This document shows positions 1,490-30,448 of a stretch of 30,448 nt of DNA, piece after piece. Each line of letters opens with the position of its first letter. Position 1 is the stretch's first letter. The position numbers were made by a program, and so were the translations under genes. The DNA is from a virus: the IMG/VR virus record IMGVR_UViG_3300034375_008720, positions 1-30,448 of that record. One strand, written 5' to 3'. The notes under the pieces are model-generated. The model had not been told where the DNA came from. It did not search any database and was given only the letters and a program-made list of their open reading frames with translations.

Positions 1490-1912
1490 TCAGAATGGAA
1501 TATCGGCACCAGCAGCCCCTGCCTGCCAGCCACCAGATGCCCCGGTGCTGCCCTGCCCTCGAGCTGGTGGCGCATCCTCACCTGGCTGCCTCTGACGCTG
1601 GCCTACCACTCGCGCACGCTGGCACTTGATCTGCCACCCGCTGCGCTGCTGCCCCTCGCGATCAGTCCACTGCTGTGCCTGCAGCTCACCCTCTACGTAG
1701 ACCCAGCAGCCCTTGGTGGCATCGCGCGCCACCCACTCTGCCTGCAGCCCAAACAGGACACAGGGAAACCATGCAGGAACGTCTGTCCAGCTACCGCCCA
1801 CCTTCTGCCGCTGACTCTCGCAGATCGAGAATCGCAGCATTTTGGTATCACTGCCGACTGTCACCACCTCTGGGGTCTGGCCTAGCCGCCCCAGCACACT
1901 GATCAGTGCCAT
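1490..1912 (-). CDS. ssb: Single-stranded DNA-binding protein (SSB, 140 aa)
   Basis: SSB coats single-stranded DNA during replication and recombination. The first 100 residues have the OB-fold pattern of bacterial SSBs: MALISVLGRLG at the start, a central LRFSICE strand, WFPCVLFG, and GCWVYVEGELQ. A Gly/Gln-rich linker then leads to the acidic tip DIPF, which in bacterial SSBs docks host replication proteins. I chose the ATG at 1912 rather than the longer frame to 2014. An AAAGGGAGG ribosome binding site lies just upstream of it, and MALIS is the natural SSB start. This leaves the 1913-2233 region non-coding. With the ERF protein encoded in the same block, it supplies a single-strand annealing recombination pair. 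Confidence 0.93.
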   Translation of the reverse strand: MALISVLGRLGQTPEVVTVGSDTKMLRFSICESQRQKVGGSWTDVPAWFPCVLFGLQAEWVARDATKGCWVYVEGELQAQQWTDREGQQRSGWQIKCQRARVVGQRQRQPGEDAPPARGQGSTGASGGWQAGAAGADIPF

Positions 1913-2233
1913 CGCACCCTCCCTTTGCATCAGTCTATCACGCTGGACTGCCCAGCGTGCAACCCGTGCAACCCTCTGCAACCCTGCCAAGGTTGCACAA
2001 TAGTGCCGCCCCATCCTAGCAGATCAGCGAGTGCAACCGTGCAACCCGGATCTGATACATATTCTCTGAAAAAAACCCAGGATGGCAAAAACACCCACCA
2101 GTTTCTGCCATTTTGGTTTTTTCCATGAGAATACCTTTAAACAGGGTTGCACTGGTTGCACTGGTTGCAGAGTAGTTACAACCCCCACTATGGGCAGAAA
2201 ACTGCAACATTCTGCAGGTTGCACAGGGTTGCA
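1913..2233. other. Candidate replication origin: inverted iteron clusters around an A/T-rich dyad
   Basis: No gene is supported here. On the left, GTGCAACC(C) occurs at 1957-1965, 1966-1974, 2031-2038 and 2039-2047, with a related TGCAACCC at 1977-1984 and one reversed copy at 1991-1998. On the right the opposite strand word, GGGTTGCAC or near variants, occurs at 2144-2152, 2153-2161, 2162-2170, 2216-2224 and 2226-2234. Between them lies a dyad: ATTCTC 2061-2066 with GAGAAT 2127-2132, the A-tract/CC 2069-2077 with GGTTTTTT 2115-2122, and ATGGCA 2082-2087 with TGCCAT 2106-2111. All three pairs centre at or near 2096.5. The segment follows the helicase gene and precedes ssb. Iterons beside an A/T-rich core are typical of initiator-bound origins; the assignment is inference. 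Confidence 0.6.
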
Positions 2234-4195
2234 CTACTCGTCTGCTGTGTGGTCAAGGGGCTGCAGGCAGCGGATCATGGTGACCACTTGACCAGCCAGC
2301 TGCAGTTTGCGGTTGACTTCCACAAGCCCAGCAGACTGCCAACGGGCCAGGGCTGCCTGCGCGTCATGCCCCTGTGCCTTCAGCCAGTCACGCGCATAGG
2401 TCGACACCACACACAGCCTGCCCTGGCTGTCAATCTTGGCCAGCCACTCGCGAGGGCTGCGCAGGTACTGATCAGAGTCAGCCAGGCCCCAGATCTGGGC
2501 AGGCCTCGAGAGCAGGTGAGACTGCAGATCATCCCAGGCCAGCAGTCCGCGATCGGCATCAGCTGCGCCTGCCAGCGCATGATCTCGCGCCACCTCGATG
2601 GGGCTGGGTAGCCCCTCTGGCAAGTGCAGGCCACAGGCTGTGCAAATCTCTTGCGCTAGCTGCAGGATGGCCAGCAGCTCTGCCAGCCTGCCAGCGACTG
2701 CCCCTCCCTGGTCTACCATCTGCGCCCTGTGCATCGCTAGCAGGCTGCTGTAGCGCGATCGCCAGTGGGTGCCCATCATCTGCACCCGGTCGACCACCAT
2801 AGGCCCCAGGTGCCCATAGTGCTGCAGCACAGTCTCTGTGAGCTGCCAGGCCTGCTGCCCGCTGGCCAGTGGGCTGCCCTCGAGCGCCAGCACTCGCGCT
2901 CTGGCTCCCTCGTCCTCGCTATAGCTGGTGATGCGTGCCTCACCCGTCGACAGCAGGATCGACTGCCAGCGCAGCACCTGCCTAGTGTCGACGGATCGCG
3001 CGCCCCTGCCTGGTTTTGCTCTGCCCTTGCTCTGACCGTAGGCATGGCTATACAGCACCTGTGCGATCTGGTGCTTCCGCTTGCTCTGCTTTGTATCGTC
3101 CAGCAGCAGGGGCAGGTGGCGCAGAATGCTGGCCTGCGCCTCGATGTAGTTGGTGGTGCTATCCCAGGAACGCAGCAGCCCCTGCTGGGTAGGCAGGCCC
3201 CACACGCTAGCTGCCAGGCGCAGGATCGTAGTCTTGCCCTGCGAGGTGGCCCCGCTGAAGTCGACGATCCAGCCCTGTGTGCAGCCCAGCCAGGCCAGCA
3301 GAGGCGAGGCCACAGACGCATACACAGCCAGCCAGGCATAGGGCTGGTCTTGCACCTGCTCAAGTGCCCTCTGCCACTCGTGATAGCTGCCCTGCTCTCG
3401 CAGTGCGTGTGCCAGATCCTCACAGCCCTGCAGGTGCACACGCTGGCCCATATCGCCGATCCACTGCTCGCCACAGAGGAAGCCGCCAGACACCCAGCCC
3501 AGCCTGCTGCACGTCTGCCTGACTGGCAGGTCAGTGCTGCGATACAGGCACTCTGACAGATAGCGAGCCACAGCCCTGCCGTTATCCGCGTGCACTGCTG
3601 CGCCAGCCCCAGCCAGCGTCTGTGTCAGCTGTGGAGCACTGCCCAGCTCTGCCAGCGGCACTGTTGCGCTACCCCTAGGCCACTTGACCACTGCGCTGCG
3701 CTCGTCTGTCTCCACATCGCGCACTGTCTCACTGCATGCGAGCCAGTGACTGCACACCAGCTCTGGGTGCTCGCCTCTGTCCCGGTAGACCCCAGCAGTG
3801 CTGACAGCGTAGCCATCTGGCACCACCCAGCCTGCAGGCAGTCTGTGAGCCTGGTGCGCTGGTGCCTCTGACTGGTGGCCAGCCTTGACCACTGCCCGCA
3901 CTGCTGACTCCAGATCGCGCACTGTGCGCTGGCTGACCTCTGTCTCCCGGATCTCTGCCAGGCCTGCTGCCCAGCCTGCAGGCTGATGCACTGCCAGGCC
4001 TGCCAGCGTCTCGAGCTGGCCAGCGTCTCGCAGTACCCCTGCCAGCACTCTGCCCCTGTCTCGCTTGCTGCTTGCTGTGGCCAGCCCATCCAGCAGGGAC
4101 TGCAGCAGCTCTGTGCCTGCCTCGATCCGCGCAGCTGGGCTGCTGCTGTCAATGCCCAGCAGCTGATCCAACTGCTGATCTGGTATCCGTTGCAT
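2234..4195 (-). CDS. DUF927-type replicative helicase/ATPase (653 aa)
   Basis: The central region matches DUF927 helicase-like ATPases found in phage and plasmid replication modules. A Walker A loop, GATSQGKTT, lies at residues 315-323. A Walker B strand, LPLLLDD, lies at 361-367. Downstream, about 410-440, is an LLSTGEARI strand and an Arg-rich segment typical of the family (STGE...EGARARV). The N-terminal 290 residues look like a helical region followed by a mixed domain; the C-terminal 200 residues are helical with a winged-helix-like end. The ATG start has an AAAGGGGAGAGG ribosome binding site and follows the primase gene by 19 bases. Primase plus helicase in this order indicates a self-encoded initiation/unwinding pair. 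The candidate origin lies immediately downstream. Confidence 0.85.
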   Translation of the reverse strand: MQRIPDQQLDQLLGIDSSSPAARIEAGTELLQSLLDGLATASSKRDRGRVLAGVLRDAGQLETLAGLAVHQPAGWAAGLAEIRETEVSQRTVRDLESAVRAVVKAGHQSEAPAHQAHRLPAGWVVPDGYAVSTAGVYRDRGEHPELVCSHWLACSETVRDVETDERSAVVKWPRGSATVPLAELGSAPQLTQTLAGAGAAVHADNGRAVARYLSECLYRSTDLPVRQTCSRLGWVSGGFLCGEQWIGDMGQRVHLQGCEDLAHALREQGSYHEWQRALEQVQDQPYAWLAVYASVASPLLAWLGCTQGWIVDFSGATSQGKTTILRLAASVWGLPTQQGLLRSWDSTTNYIEAQASILRHLPLLLDDTKQSKRKHQIAQVLYSHAYGQSKGRAKPGRGARSVDTRQVLRWQSILLSTGEARITSYSEDEGARARVLALEGSPLASGQQAWQLTETVLQHYGHLGPMVVDRVQMMGTHWRSRYSSLLAMHRAQMVDQGGAVAGRLAELLAILQLAQEICTACGLHLPEGLPSPIEVARDHALAGAADADRGLLAWDDLQSHLLSRPAQIWGLADSDQYLRSPREWLAKIDSQGRLCVVSTYARDWLKAQGHDAQAALARWQSAGLVEVNRKLQLAGQVVTMIRCLQPLDHTADE

Positions 4196-4214: not shown

Positions 4215-5054
4215 TTATTCGTTCAGCGCCCATAGTGGGCCATACCAGCCACAGCTGTCTGCATGGTTGCATCGCGCTGTGGTGCGCGTCTGGCAGTCGA
4301 TCACATACCAGACGCTGTGCCGATCGCAGCCAGGGCACTGCAGCCCTGTGGCCACCCTAGCTGTGCCTCGCTGGTGCACTCGAGCACCCCAGGCCAGTGC
4401 CAGCCTGTGCCGCACCTCCGGATCCTCTGCCATCGCCTGCCTGCGCGCTCTGTCTCTGCCCCTCGCGCTGTCCTGCCAGACAGGCCTGCGCCTCTGCTGC
4501 CTCTGCCTCTGCTGCTGTGCCAGCCTCTGCCGCACCCTGGCTGCCAGCTCTGACAGATCAAGGCGCTGCCCCTCGAGCTGCACGCTGGTGGCTGTGGTCG
4601 GATCTGGGCTGCCTGGTAGCAGGTAGATCCTGCTGGGGTCACTGCAGCTGGGATCTGCCCGGTCCCCATCCTGGGCCACACAGGCGCGGTAGACCGCAGA
4701 CCAGACAGCAGCCGCGATGGGCACCAGTAGGGGCAGCACCACTCTGCACCGTGGCTCTGCCTCGCTGTGGCTGTAGGTCGTATGCGCCACTCCCTGCCAG
4801 CCCTGCCAGCGATCTGCAGCCTCCGCCAGCGGCATCTGCTGATCGTAGTCCAGCACCAGGGCTGACACCACCTCGACGGATGCCAGGGATCGGCGCAGCG
4901 TGCCTGCTGGGTAGCCCGCTGGTGACCAGCAGGGGATCTGATGCTTGCTCGAGGCCTGCGCTGTCTGCTGCAGCCTGTGCGCCAGCCTCTGCCACTGCAG
5001 ATCGCGCAGCACTGGCCTAGGATCTCGCAGATGGGCAAAAAAGGCGCAGCGCAT
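4215..5054 (-). CDS. Archaeo-eukaryotic-type primase (AEP) with C-terminal zinc ribbon (279 aa)
   Basis: AEP-family primases make the primers for replication, and in phages and plasmids are often paired with a helicase. The metal-binding D-x-D is LDYD at residues 68-71. It is followed by TTYSHS (92-97), RCRVVLPL (102-109) and DPSRIYLLPG (139-148). These match the three-motif pattern of AEP/prim-pol proteins (DxD, sxH-like, and the late D/R-PG motif). A basic Gln/Arg-rich linker (about 180-210) leads to a C-terminal zinc-ribbon-like segment with Cys 240, 243, 262 and 268. The helicase gene follows after 19 bases. A replication-initiator (Rep) role at the downstream iterons is possible. The primase call rests on motifs I can see, not on an alignment. 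Confidence 0.78.
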   Translation of the reverse strand: MRCAFFAHLRDPRPVLRDLQWQRLAHRLQQTAQASSKHQIPCWSPAGYPAGTLRRSLASVEVVSALVLDYDQQMPLAEAADRWQGWQGVAHTTYSHSEAEPRCRVVLPLLVPIAAAVWSAVYRACVAQDGDRADPSCSDPSRIYLLPGSPDPTTATSVQLEGQRLDLSELAARVRQRLAQQQRQRQQRRRPVWQDSARGRDRARRQAMAEDPEVRHRLALAWGARVHQRGTARVATGLQCPGCDRHSVWYVIDCQTRTTARCNHADSCGWYGPLWALNE

Positions 5055-5056
5055 GG

Positions 5057-5263
5057 CTAGGGCGCAGCCTCCAGCTGCTGCTGCAGCCAGGCCAGCACCA
5101 GCGTGCCTGTGATCTCCACCTCATCGAGCAGTGCGCCTGTGGCCATCCCAGCGAAAGCCTGATCCTGCGCGGCACGCTGTGCGCGCTCGATCACCTGCCC
5201 TACCTCGATGGCATCGAGGCTGTGTAGCCAGTCGCGGATCTGGCCTAGCTCTCTCAGTGTCAT
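5057..5263 (-). CDS. Small protein of unknown function (68 aa)
   Basis: A short acidic, helical protein (MTLRELGQIRDWLHS start, with a Leu-rich C-terminal helix). I recognise no family. The ATG has an AAGGGAG ribosome binding site. The leader, ribosome binding site and first codons are identical over 20 bases to those of the Mom-like gene upstream, whose stop overlaps this start by four bases. It ends two bases before the primase gene. The first codons (M-T-L) may therefore have been copied to, or from, the Mom-like gene. Confidence 0.6.
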   Translation of the reverse strand: MTLRELGQIRDWLHSLDAIEVGQVIERAQRAAQDQAFAGMATGALLDEVEITGTLVLAWLQQQLEAAP

Positions 5264-5275
5264 GCTGTCTCCCTT
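5256..5275. repeat. 20-base direct repeat, copy 1, downstream of the Mom-like gene
   Basis: The 20 bases here are identical to 5849-5868. On the minus strand they comprise the AAGGGAG ribosome binding site, its spacer, an ATG and the next two codons. Flanking bases differ (5255 is C and 5848 is T; 5276 is T and 5869 is G). The two copies bracket the Mom-like gene exactly. Confidence 0.95.
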
Positions 5276-5856
5276 TTAAATGCTTGAAAGTCACAGCCAC
5301 CAGTGCCGCCCACTAACCGCCCTCGCCTAAATTTTGGCTCCCTCCACTCTGCCCACGGGTATCTTTTGAGCAATCCCTGCTCTTTAATGCACAAAACCTG
5401 CATTCTGCGCGCATCAGGGGCTAAAGGGTAAACCCAGCGATCTTTCACTGCCTGCAGCGTTATCCCATCCCAAGTGCCTCCCTGTGACGGAGGGGGCCTT
5501 AGTCGGTGCCACGTTGGGGCCCACAGCCAGCCGCATGCACGATACAGTGCGCCAGTATGCTTTGCACTTGGGTCGCTATAGCTGATGACTGTTGTAACTC
5601 CCAACGATCTGACCCATGGCAAGGCTGCCTTCCATTGTTTGGAACCACCGTTTTTTCGACCGACCAGACACCAGCGCGACAGTTCCAACCAGTCGCAAGG
5701 CATGTGCCGAGAAGTAGGCGAGGCTAAAACCAAACACCCAAATTCATCGCGCCATGCGATTCCGCGATCTGTGGATCCAAGGTAATGATCGCGATCCAGC
5801 GTAGACGCCACAGCCTGCACAGTGCATGGGCCTGGCCCAAACAGAGATAGTGTCAT
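5260..5856 (-). CDS. Mom-like DNA modification protein (GNAT-fold family, 198 aa)
   Basis: Phage Mu Mom adds a carbamoylmethyl group to adenines, protecting phage DNA from restriction. Residues 57-66 read LELSRWCLVG. Residues 88-110 hold TTVISYSDPSAKH followed by TGALYRACGW, then APTWHRLRPPP to 123. This matches what I know of the Mom-like phage family, whose SYADP/S-x(n)-HTG-Y-A-GW core corresponds to a GNAT acetyltransferase fold. I chose the ATG at 5856 because it has AAGGGAGACAGC directly upstream; a longer frame exists to 5907. The gene differs in composition from its neighbours: fewer CAG/CTG repeats, more A-rich codons, and no CTCGAG. It is bracketed by a 20-base direct repeat, which suggests recent acquisition. 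A non-modifying GNAT is the alternative. The modified base cannot be read from sequence. Confidence 0.78.
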   Translation of the reverse strand: MTLSLFGPGPCTVQAVASTLDRDHYLGSTDRGIAWRDEFGCLVLASPTSRHMPCDWLELSRWCLVGRKNGGSKQWKAALPWVRSLGVTTVISYSDPSAKHTGALYRACGWLWAPTWHRLRPPPSQGGTWDGITLQAVKDRWVYPLAPDARRMQVLCIKEQGLLKRYPWAEWREPKFRRGRLVGGTGGCDFQAFKRETA

Positions 5857-5868
5857 GCTGTCTCCCTT
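5849..5868. repeat. 20-base direct repeat, copy 2, at the start of the Mom-like gene
   Basis: Identical to 5256-5275. It carries the ribosome binding site and first codons of the Mom-like gene. Recombination between the copies would remove 593 bases. That would leave the 68-aa gene directly behind the 85-aa gene with an intact leader. Confidence 0.95.
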
Positions 5869-5869
5869 G

Positions 5870-6127
5870 TCAGCTGTCGTATGGCTCGACTGCACAGGAC
5901 TGCACACCCACTGCGCGCAGCTGCTCGAGCACGTCAGCGCACAGCTGCTCTCCCACCACCACCATCACCAGCGCGATCCGCCTGCCTCCCTCTGCATCAG
6001 ACAGAGTGGCCCAGCCCATCGGGCTGCTGGTGTGCAGGCACTCGAGAATCGCAGTAGATGCACCCTCGCTGACTGCATCCACCCAAGCCTGGATCATCTC
6101 TGCTGGCAGGTCACTGGCGCTGCTCAT
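5870..6127 (-). CDS. Small protein of unknown function (85 aa)
   Basis: An acidic protein of mixed character. The N-terminal helix contains AEMIQAWVDAVSEGAST, followed by a strand-rich middle (RRIALVMVVVGEQL). I recognise no family. The start at 6127 has GGAGAG just upstream and lies 17 bases inside the end of the winged-helix gene, so the two are probably translationally coupled. Its stop lies 13 bases before the Mom-like start, right beside the 20-base repeat. A hydrophobic VMVVV segment is too short to be a membrane span. Confidence 0.5.
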   Translation of the reverse strand: MSSASDLPAEMIQAWVDAVSEGASTAILECLHTSSPMGWATLSDAEGGRRIALVMVVVGEQLCADVLEQLRAVGVQSCAVEPYDS

Positions 6128-6563: not shown

Positions 6564-6997
6564 TAGGCACCTCGCAGTGCGACTGCGAGAAACTGCAACA
6601 AGGGCACTGCGCGCACATCGCACCCAGCCTCTGCAGCAATCGCCTGCTCTCGCTCCTCTGACCAGTCAGCCAGCGCCAGCAGATCACAGAGCCGGATCAC
6701 TGCGCGCCACTCCCGCCGATCCTCGCGATAGAGCAGGATCGGGATCCCATCCAGCCCAGCGTCATGGCAGGCCTGGCGCATCGCTGCCCGCTTATCCACT
6801 GCCTTCTGCCGCTTGACCTCGATGTGTACTCGATCCCAGTCTGGGGCATCCACTGGCACCACATCAGGTGCCTCTGTGCCTCCGCCCCTGGTCTGCACCA
6901 GGCTACGCTGCCACTCCAGCCCTGTGCAGGCTGACAGCAGATCGCAGGCCTCGCGCTCGCCTCGCGCTCCCTTGTCTCTCGATGCCCTACCGCCCAT
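6563..6997 (-). CDS. Holliday junction resolvase-like PD-(D/E)XK nuclease (144 aa)
   Basis: Such nucleases resolve branched DNA made during recombination. The motif set is clear: an N-terminal helix KGARGEREACDLL with Glu14, then RSLVQTRGGGTEAPDV with Asp45, then VHIEVKRQK with Glu60 and Lys62. This is the Hjc/VRR-type arrangement (E, D, E-x-K). The C-terminal part covers residues about 66-144 and contains ILLYREDR. I chose the ATG at 6997 (MGGRAS), with AAGGGTGG upstream; it overlaps the end of the ERF gene by 11 bases. Coupling with ERF fits a strand-annealing recombination pathway followed by resolution. Confidence 0.82.
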   Translation of the reverse strand: MGGRASRDKGARGEREACDLLSACTGLEWQRSLVQTRGGGTEAPDVVPVDAPDWDRVHIEVKRQKAVDKRAAMRQACHDAGLDGIPILLYREDRREWRAVIRLCDLLALADWSEEREQAIAAEAGCDVRAVPLLQFLAVALRGA

Positions 6998-7754
6998 CAC
7001 TGCCACCCTTGCCACGCAGGATCAGCGCCTGGATCTCGCTGTCTGTAGCCCTGCGCAGCCGCTCGAGCTTGCCCACTGCCGCCGTCTCTGGAATGTCAGA
7101 CAGCGAGGAAAAACCAAACGCGGCACGCTGCACCCTGTGCCGCTCGTCATCAGTCAGCCGGAATGGCTGCCGCCCCAGCTTTGCGTGCCAGAGCCTGCGC
7201 AGCTGATCTCTGGCGCTGGCCACCTCTACCTGACTGGCAGGCCACTGATCAGGGTCGACTGCAGGTGCTGCTGGTGCCGCCTGCCTCTGCCTCGCCTGCT
7301 GGGCTGCTGCCCCATCGTCATCAGTGGCGCTGATCCCCAGCAGTGCCAGCAGCCCATACCTGCGAGCATAGGTATACGCGCTGCCCTGGCCATGTGGGCC
7401 ACCCTGACGATCGCTCGGCATCGCAGTATAGGCCTCGATCCACTGGCCACTGACGTGCAGCAGCCTGGTAGCACACATCACCCCATCGTAGCCCAGCGCA
7501 TAGGTCTGCTGGTCTTTCAGCAGGTGCAGCACCTGCCCCTGCAGGCAGGCGAGCTGGCAGGTGATCAGCACAGGCCTGACCACTGCCAGCACAGAGGGCA
7601 GGTCAGCGTAGCTGTACTTGTGCGCTTTTTCGCCCTTATACACATCGCTGATCTGGGTGGTGGCCTTGACCAGCGCAGGGCTGATCTGGTCAGTGTCCAT
7701 CGAGGTGCGGATCGTGATCAGCCCCTCTGCTGTGATCTTGACTGTGGGGCTCAT
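6987..7754 (-). CDS. erf: ERF-family single-strand annealing protein (255 aa)
   Basis: ERF proteins anneal single strands and serve phage recombination and genome circularisation. The family signature is visible at residues 122-147: GQGSAYTYARRYGLLALLGI, followed by the acidic TDDDG. Earlier, KYSYADLPSVLAVVRPVL (46-63) is the typical ERF N-terminal strand-helix. A Gln/Ala/Pro linker (149-165) separates the core from a C-terminal helical domain. The ATG start overlaps the stop of the 33-residue membrane peptide as ATGA. The downstream nuclease gene starts inside its end. Together with SSB and the Hjc-like nuclease it forms a full annealing recombination set. Confidence 0.9.
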   Translation of the reverse strand: MSPTVKITAEGLITIRTSMDTDQISPALVKATTQISDVYKGEKAHKYSYADLPSVLAVVRPVLITCQLACLQGQVLHLLKDQQTYALGYDGVMCATRLLHVSGQWIEAYTAMPSDRQGGPHGQGSAYTYARRYGLLALLGISATDDDGAAAQQARQRQAAPAAPAVDPDQWPASQVEVASARDQLRRLWHAKLGRQPFRLTDDERHRVQRAAFGFSSLSDIPETAAVGKLERLRRATDSEIQALILRGKGGSDGR

Positions 7755-30142: not shown

Positions 30143-30306
30143 AGCACCGACCTAGGCTTGGTCGGCTGGGGCAATTCTTTGCGTAGCCCCTCGCGCAGCA
30201 ACAGCACGATCAGATCAGTGAGTGACAGCCCTGCAAGCTCTGCCGCCTCTACAAGTTGGTTCTTCAGTGCAACTGTGCAACGAAAACCGACAAAGCCGTC
30301 TGACAT
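30139..30306 (-). CDS. Ribbon-helix-helix (CopG/Arc-like) protein (55 aa)
   Basis: A short frame with a strong AAAGGGGGG ribosome binding site six bases before ATG 30306. The N-terminal strand (GFVGFRCTVALK, about 4-15) and two helices (QLVEAAELAGLS; LTDLIVLLLREGLRK) give the ribbon-helix-helix layout, which binds DNA as dimers. It overlaps the large terminase start as GTGA. It lies next to two dyads (30330-30352 and 30403-30415), so autorepression of the late operon is plausible. It may alternatively help packaging-site recognition. Confidence 0.65.
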   Translation of the reverse strand: MSDGFVGFRCTVALKNQLVEAAELAGLSLTDLIVLLLREGLRKELPQPTKPRSVL

Positions 30307-30448
30307 TGCATACCCCCCTTTGTTGACATAGCCCGTTGGGTATCAATGGGCTGTGAAGCGTCGTTTTCGCGGAGTCGCTTTGTTTGCATACCTGCGAAAA
30401 CCCAGGTTGAACCTGCCATATGTTAAACGTTAATTGTTTGCAGATGCG
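30307..30448. promoter_or_regulatory. Late-operon upstream region with two dyads (other side of the junction)
   Basis: A 13-base perfect dyad, CAGGTTGAACCTG, lies at 30403-30415. An imperfect 23-base dyad, AGCCC...GGGCT with inner TTG/CAA, lies at 30330-30352. A TTGACA is at 30323-30328 on the plus strand. An A/T-rich stretch with a TTAAACGTTAA dyad lies at 30423-30433. The segment joins 1-199 if the genome is circular. I see operator-like symmetry but no clear -35/-10 for leftward transcription. Confidence 0.5.

Follow-up and report, generated by a model that had tools for sequence, protein, structure and literature searches.

A probable SaPI/PICI-type replication origin beside a DUF927 helicase gene in an uncultured phage

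Pathogenicity-island replicons and the phage locus

The initiator gene of PICIs is followed immediately on its 3′ side by the origin, which 'always' contains two iteron sets flanking an AT-rich region; a cloned PICI pri-rep-ori replicates, whereas ori or rep mutants do not (PMC6092414). In SaPIs, the origin consists of iterons directly downstream of rep, which are recognised by the C-terminal domain of Rep, apparently as two hexamers, and the SCCmec protein Cch contains DUF927 and is related to Rep of SaPIbov1 (PMC7581432). Repeats downstream of its own gene are likewise bound by the C-terminal domain of SCCmec Cch2 (PMC7581432), although this protein is from a different helicase family and no more than three iterons make up its putative origin.

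The window analysed here is the whole 30,448-bp stretch of one IMG/VR virus record (IMGVR_UViG_3300034375_008720), in which the minus strand carries, in this order, a primase-like gene, a DUF927 helicase gene, a gap of about 322 bp (1913-2233) and an ssb gene. We propose, with a probability of about 0.88, that the gap is the replication origin of the phage, of the SaPI/PICI 'rep-ori' kind, and that the adjacent helicase is its initiator. The proposal is based on the repeat array and its position, on the kinship and predicted fold of the initiator and on the recurrence of the layout in relatives. An initiator-bound, symmetric origin had been suggested in an earlier note on this DNA, and the position, neighbours and layout of the gap do match those of proven SaPI/PICI origins, to whose initiator the helicase is kin. 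Like the SaPI replicon (SaPIbov1 pri-rep-ori), the locus has a DUF927 initiator with a primase gene upstream, and its probable origin follows the helicase gene immediately on the 3′ side, with an AT-rich core between two arms of iterons; the strand plan of staphylococcal loci is similar as well (++-++|-+..). Unlike it, the window looks like a 30-kb tailed phage and not a satellite, its helicase is only ~25% identical, the iterons read GTGCAACC where the SaPI words resemble AGTTCCC, the core is strongly palindromic and the next gene beyond the origin is ssb. The origins of Gram-negative PICIs (EcCICFT073 and others), which we liken to the window by their description, also have an AT-rich region between two iteron sets, immediately 3′ of the initiator gene (PMC6092414).

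The gene upstream of the helicase (4215-5054, minus strand) encodes a putative primase-like protein with a C-terminal zinc ribbon (PHROG 9765 'DNA primase', E 1e-9, residues 31-148), and ssb (1490-1912, minus strand; Pfam PF00436, E 3.2e-18) has a ribosome-binding site, GGGAGGG (~1917-1923), that closes the origin gap. The window also encodes a large terminase (PHROG 2, E 4.8e-17), a weakly matched major head protein (E 5.5e-4), a tape measure protein (E 7.1e-19) and a possible terminase small subunit (200-595; PHROG 2538, E 1.9e-5). Since the element has terminase, head and tape-measure genes of its own, it is a phage using a SaPI-type replicon and not a PICI satellite. Upstream in the same gene series are genes for a Mom-like DNA modification protein (5260-5907; Pfam, E 3.1e-8) and an ERF-type annealing protein (6987-7754; E 3.9e-17). 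Three contigs of a near-identical phage from different metagenomes (L002, L003 and L004) all end at the same base, 10 bp beyond window position 30448 and upstream of the large terminase gene, which is either a natural end or a shared assembly break; no contig spanning the window ends was found that would indicate circular closure. The cumulative GC skew proposed earlier as a check has no turning point at 2096, although gene strand bias could hide one.

The repeat array

The heptamer TGCAACC occurs 18 times on either strand in the 30,448-bp window, and 11 of these copies fall within the 280 bp from 1957 to 2234, leaving seven for the remaining 30 kb; nine of the 11 are exact copies of GTGCAACC. 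The most clustered 7-mer of the whole window is GGTTGCA, with 11 copies per 300 bp compared with 5 for the best unrelated word. The array fills the gap between the helicase stop codon and the ssb start, and its outermost iteron (2227-2234) touches the stop codon, so that the iterons stand directly 3′ of the presumed initiator gene.

With sites called at no more than two mismatches to GTGCAACC, and with further two-mismatch matches at 1906, 2003, 2176 and 2259 dropped as too weak and lacking the TGCAAC centre, the array comprises six sites on each side of a core of ~100 bp. The left arm starts with an outer group on the plus strand (1957-1964 and 1966-1973, both exact, and 1976-1983, which reads CTGCAACC with one mismatch), continues with a lone exact GTGCAACC on the minus strand (1991-1998) and ends with an inner group on the plus strand (2031-2038 and 2039-2046). 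On the right, an inner group on the minus strand (2145-2152 and 2154-2161, exact, and 2163-2170, with one mismatch) is followed by a weak plus-strand site (2202-2209, CTGCAACA, two mismatches), the mirror partner of 1991-1998, and by an outer group on the minus strand (2217-2224 and 2227-2234). Each arm therefore has two core-facing groups with one reversed copy between them. The copies listed in the earlier note are all where it placed them, except that its 2162-2170 is CTGCAACC, one mismatch from the 8-mer; it had seen nine of the 12 sites and missed the near-copy at 1976, the exact reversed copy at 1991 and the weak reversed one at 2202. As sites lie on both sides of the core and mainly on opposite strands, the array is not a classical one-sided iteron origin of the plasmid RepA or lambda O type.

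The orientation of the copies differs between left and right (Fisher p = 0.013). It had been claimed that near and far clusters mirror position 2096.5 to within 2-3 bases: with the axis fixed there, four of five copies do so within 3 bp (p = 0.03 under random cluster placement), whereas a tolerance of 2 bp leaves three mirror pairs (p = 0.07). The symmetry of the array is by itself only moderately beyond chance, with p values from 0.01 to 0.07 in the window alone, and relatives were therefore examined.

Related words are found elsewhere in the window. Three more TGCAACC copies, all on the plus strand, are packed into 65 bp of noncoding DNA at the contig start (7-71), past the 3′ end of the gene for the possible terminase small subunit; three copies within 80 bp, as here, appeared in 0 of 200 shuffles, and the cluster, which the contig end truncates, is possibly another binding region. 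Two tandem copies of GTGCAAC (30267 and 30275, within 30267-30282) lie inside a small ORF whose product resembles a ribbon-helix-helix protein (MSDGFVGFRCTVALKNQ...) and are probably a coding coincidence.

The palindromic core

Between the arms, an imperfect palindrome that includes A/T tracts spans positions 2060-2133. The inverted core centred on 2096.5 that the earlier note described is genuine: 25 of 33 positions are paired, a value reached by none of 200 first-order shuffles (maximum 21). Its folding is stronger than expected both as minus-strand RNA (z -5.8) and as plus-strand DNA (z -4.4), and at 60% AT, compared with 45% in the surrounding region, it provides the AT-rich centre between two iteron sets. 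We consider the core a candidate unwinding site capable of forming a cruciform. Searches for Rfam RNAs and tRNAs found none in the window. The palindrome is not a general feature of the class, being clear, among the loci tested, only in the window and in L015, a Thermoanaerobacterium phage.

The helicase as predicted initiator

The product of the helicase gene (2234-4195, minus strand; Pfam PF06048, E 1.1e-38) is predicted to be a self-loading replication initiator of the Rep/Cch kind. Its best sequence matches in the PDB are SaPIbov1 Rep (8tch; phmmer E 2.5e-30, residues 199-625) and SCCmec Cch (5dgk; E 4.2e-13). The predicted model, with a mean pLDDT of 74 and with residues 58-130 unreliable, resembles the same two structures (Z 34.0 for 8tch and 33.6 for 5dgk), far ahead of MCM helicases at ~13, and Cch thus shares the predicted fold of this DUF927 helicase.

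Residues 530-653 (2237-2608, minus strand) are predicted by AlphaFold2 to fold as a winged helix. When these last 124 residues were modelled alone, they matched the C-terminal part of SaPIbov1 Rep best (Z 11.0); Cch came next, and then 5vfx (Z 9.0, rmsd 2.2 over 85), a winged-helix protein of pCW3 that binds oriT and was solved on oriT DNA. On these models, the helicase itself is likely to bind the iterons through its C-terminal winged helix, and it is a better candidate than the primase or a separate HTH protein, both of which had been proposed as binders. Furthermore, staphylococcal relatives with the same repeat word have C-termini that are 94% alike and helicase cores that are 89% alike, whereas with different words the values are 79% and 87%, respectively. 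The C-termini, unlike the cores, vary with the word, which points to the C-terminus as the iteron reader in these staphylococcal proteins, as published for SaPI Rep. A single-protein search of IMG/VR found no near relatives of the window helicase.

Two-armed arrays behind other DUF927 genes

We counted the commonest 7-mer in the 500 bp around and after the DUF927 stop codon at 79 other loci, taken from staphylococcal, Pseudomonas-type, clostridial and further phage records; the controls were 969 windows drawn from those loci and from the remainder of the window studied here. A 7-mer was present 6-12 times in 72 of the 80 regions including the window (71 of the 79 relatives), and in 29 of 35 after removal of near-duplicates; two control windows had six copies and none had more. 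In some clostridial loci, the top word reached only four copies, and no array could be recognised on the 3′ side of three DUF927 genes (in L018, L084 and L211), which may have their origins at other places or rely on a different signal.

The words differ from group to group. Staphylococcal loci use AGTTCCC, AGTACCC, AGTCCCC or AGTACAC, Pseudomonas-type loci GGGGAAC or GGCAACA, the Thermoanaerobacterium phage GGTAACC and clostridial loci GTAACAA, and the words of the Faecalibacterium phage, the Geobacillus plasmid and the Streptomyces plasmid are AGGTGAAA, TGTCACAA and AGTTACCC, respectively. The free-axis mirror-pair test is weak for each single array, and we therefore relied on strand patterns and counts. 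On the helicase strand, with plus assigned to the inner left group, the patterns are ++-+++|--+--- in the window, +++-++|--+--- in a Pseudomonas-type locus (L074), +++-+++|--+- in the Thermoanaerobacterium phage (L015), ++-++|--+--+ in L024 and +++-++|--++-- in a Streptomyces plasmid (L210). At least 28 of 34 arrays have their two inner groups on different strands, a count made with an automatic core cut that misplaces the core in some clostridial arrays, and the lone reversed copy at the place of 1991-1998 recurs in relatives; as the surveyed loci are not independent, the pattern is given without a p value. What makes the layout convincing is this recurrence. The symmetry, regarded earlier as unusual, is normal for the relatives surveyed and for PICI origins, which have two iteron sets (PMC6092414).

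Among named elements, the Streptomyces plasmid pFP4 and the Geobacillus plasmid pSJEF4-2-2, as well as phages THSA-485A (Thermoanaerobacterium), FP_Epona (Faecalibacterium) and phiAH14b (Pseudomonas), resemble the window in having ~10-16 repeats 3′ of the DUF927 gene, with arms on opposite strands. They differ from it in their words, and the core is mostly non-palindromic among the phages tested, THSA-485A excepted.

A nine-member alignment was too divergent to serve as a query; pairs were usable. In searches with the repeats themselves, an exact pair, GTGCAACCCGTGCAACC, and a looser one, GGTTGCACNGGTTGCAC, matched many contigs, among which an HMM built from 28 relatives detected no DUF927 gene. 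In L013 (10395-10535) and L194 (4605-4665), facing tandem pairs of GTGCAACC stand behind or at the end of unrelated helicase-like genes, of the Prim-Pol/VapE and AAA_25 kinds, respectively, and it seems that the word is used by different initiator families. In L181 (6335-6680), clusters of GTGCAACC are located just before a gene with a weak terminase-small-subunit-like HTH match and in its initial portion, and L177 (591-1045) has a similar cluster at the corresponding place.

Other functions of the array

Plasmid iterons can also act as incompatibility or copy-control sites. The repeats might merely titrate the initiator, with the true origin elsewhere, for example near the second TGCAACC cluster at the contig start (1-71). 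That cluster, however, is small, one-sided and cut by the contig end, and functional origins are matched by the array, both in its plan of two arms with a core between them and in its place 3′ of the initiator gene, so that we give this explanation very little credence. A packaging site (pac/cos) bound by the terminase small subunit is just as improbable. The possible gene for that subunit is only 1.3 kb away and has the 7-71 cluster beside it, yet the array touches the helicase gene and not the terminase gene, and the arrangement is maintained where SaPI-like elements, plasmids and phages carry relatives of this helicase.

Slightly less improbable, but still unlikely, is that the repeats are operators through which a repressor or the helicase controls ssb and the downstream genes, with the core hairpin as the terminator of the helicase transcript. 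The gap does precede the ssb start codon, and a scan for terminators and promoters found that the core resembles an intrinsic terminator in the direction of helicase transcription, with a strong hairpin and a T-run on the minus strand, and gave one weak promoter-like match. Twelve sites over 280 bp far exceed the need of an operator, however; the place and plan of the arrays recur behind DUF927 genes regardless of the gene that follows, and the core hairpin is not found in most relatives. Autoregulation may nevertheless exist alongside origin function.

Proposed mechanism and implications

If the gap is an origin of the SaPI/PICI kind, the DUF927 helicase would bind the GTGCAACC iterons through its C-terminal winged helix, and, as the iteron groups point towards one another from the two sides of the A/T-containing core, one hexamer would gather on each arm. 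Melting of the core would follow, and two rings would load in opposite directions; the single strands would be primed by the primase-like neighbour and covered by SSB, the product of the next gene. From the layout, we infer that firing would be bidirectional.

The two-armed layout has been described before for staphylococcal pathogenicity islands, and many phages and plasmids have it with different repeat words. Specific to this window are the word GTGCAACC, the palindromic, cruciform-capable and terminator-like core and the adjacent phage-encoded ssb. A more general scheme is conceivable, although we hold it only tentatively and rather doubt it: DUF927 origins across Bacillota, Actinomycetota and Pseudomonadota might have one arrangement in common whatever the repeat word, namely a direct group, a single reversed copy, a second direct group and the core, after which the series returns in mirror image. 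Should it be the geometry and not the word that is conserved, it would encode how two hexamers are loaded head to head; the lone reversed copies would then mark loading or spacing, and the palindrome in the core of this phage would be an additional means of opening the strands.

For an uncultured phage, the analysis gives testable coordinates for the origin and its probable initiator. In free phages and plasmids, too, DUF927 helicases prove to be commonly paired with the two-armed origin of pathogenicity islands. A fixed layout with changing words provides a data set on origin recognition and on the placement of two rings by a self-loading helicase, and the same data set serves the question of which C-terminal residues choose the repeat word.
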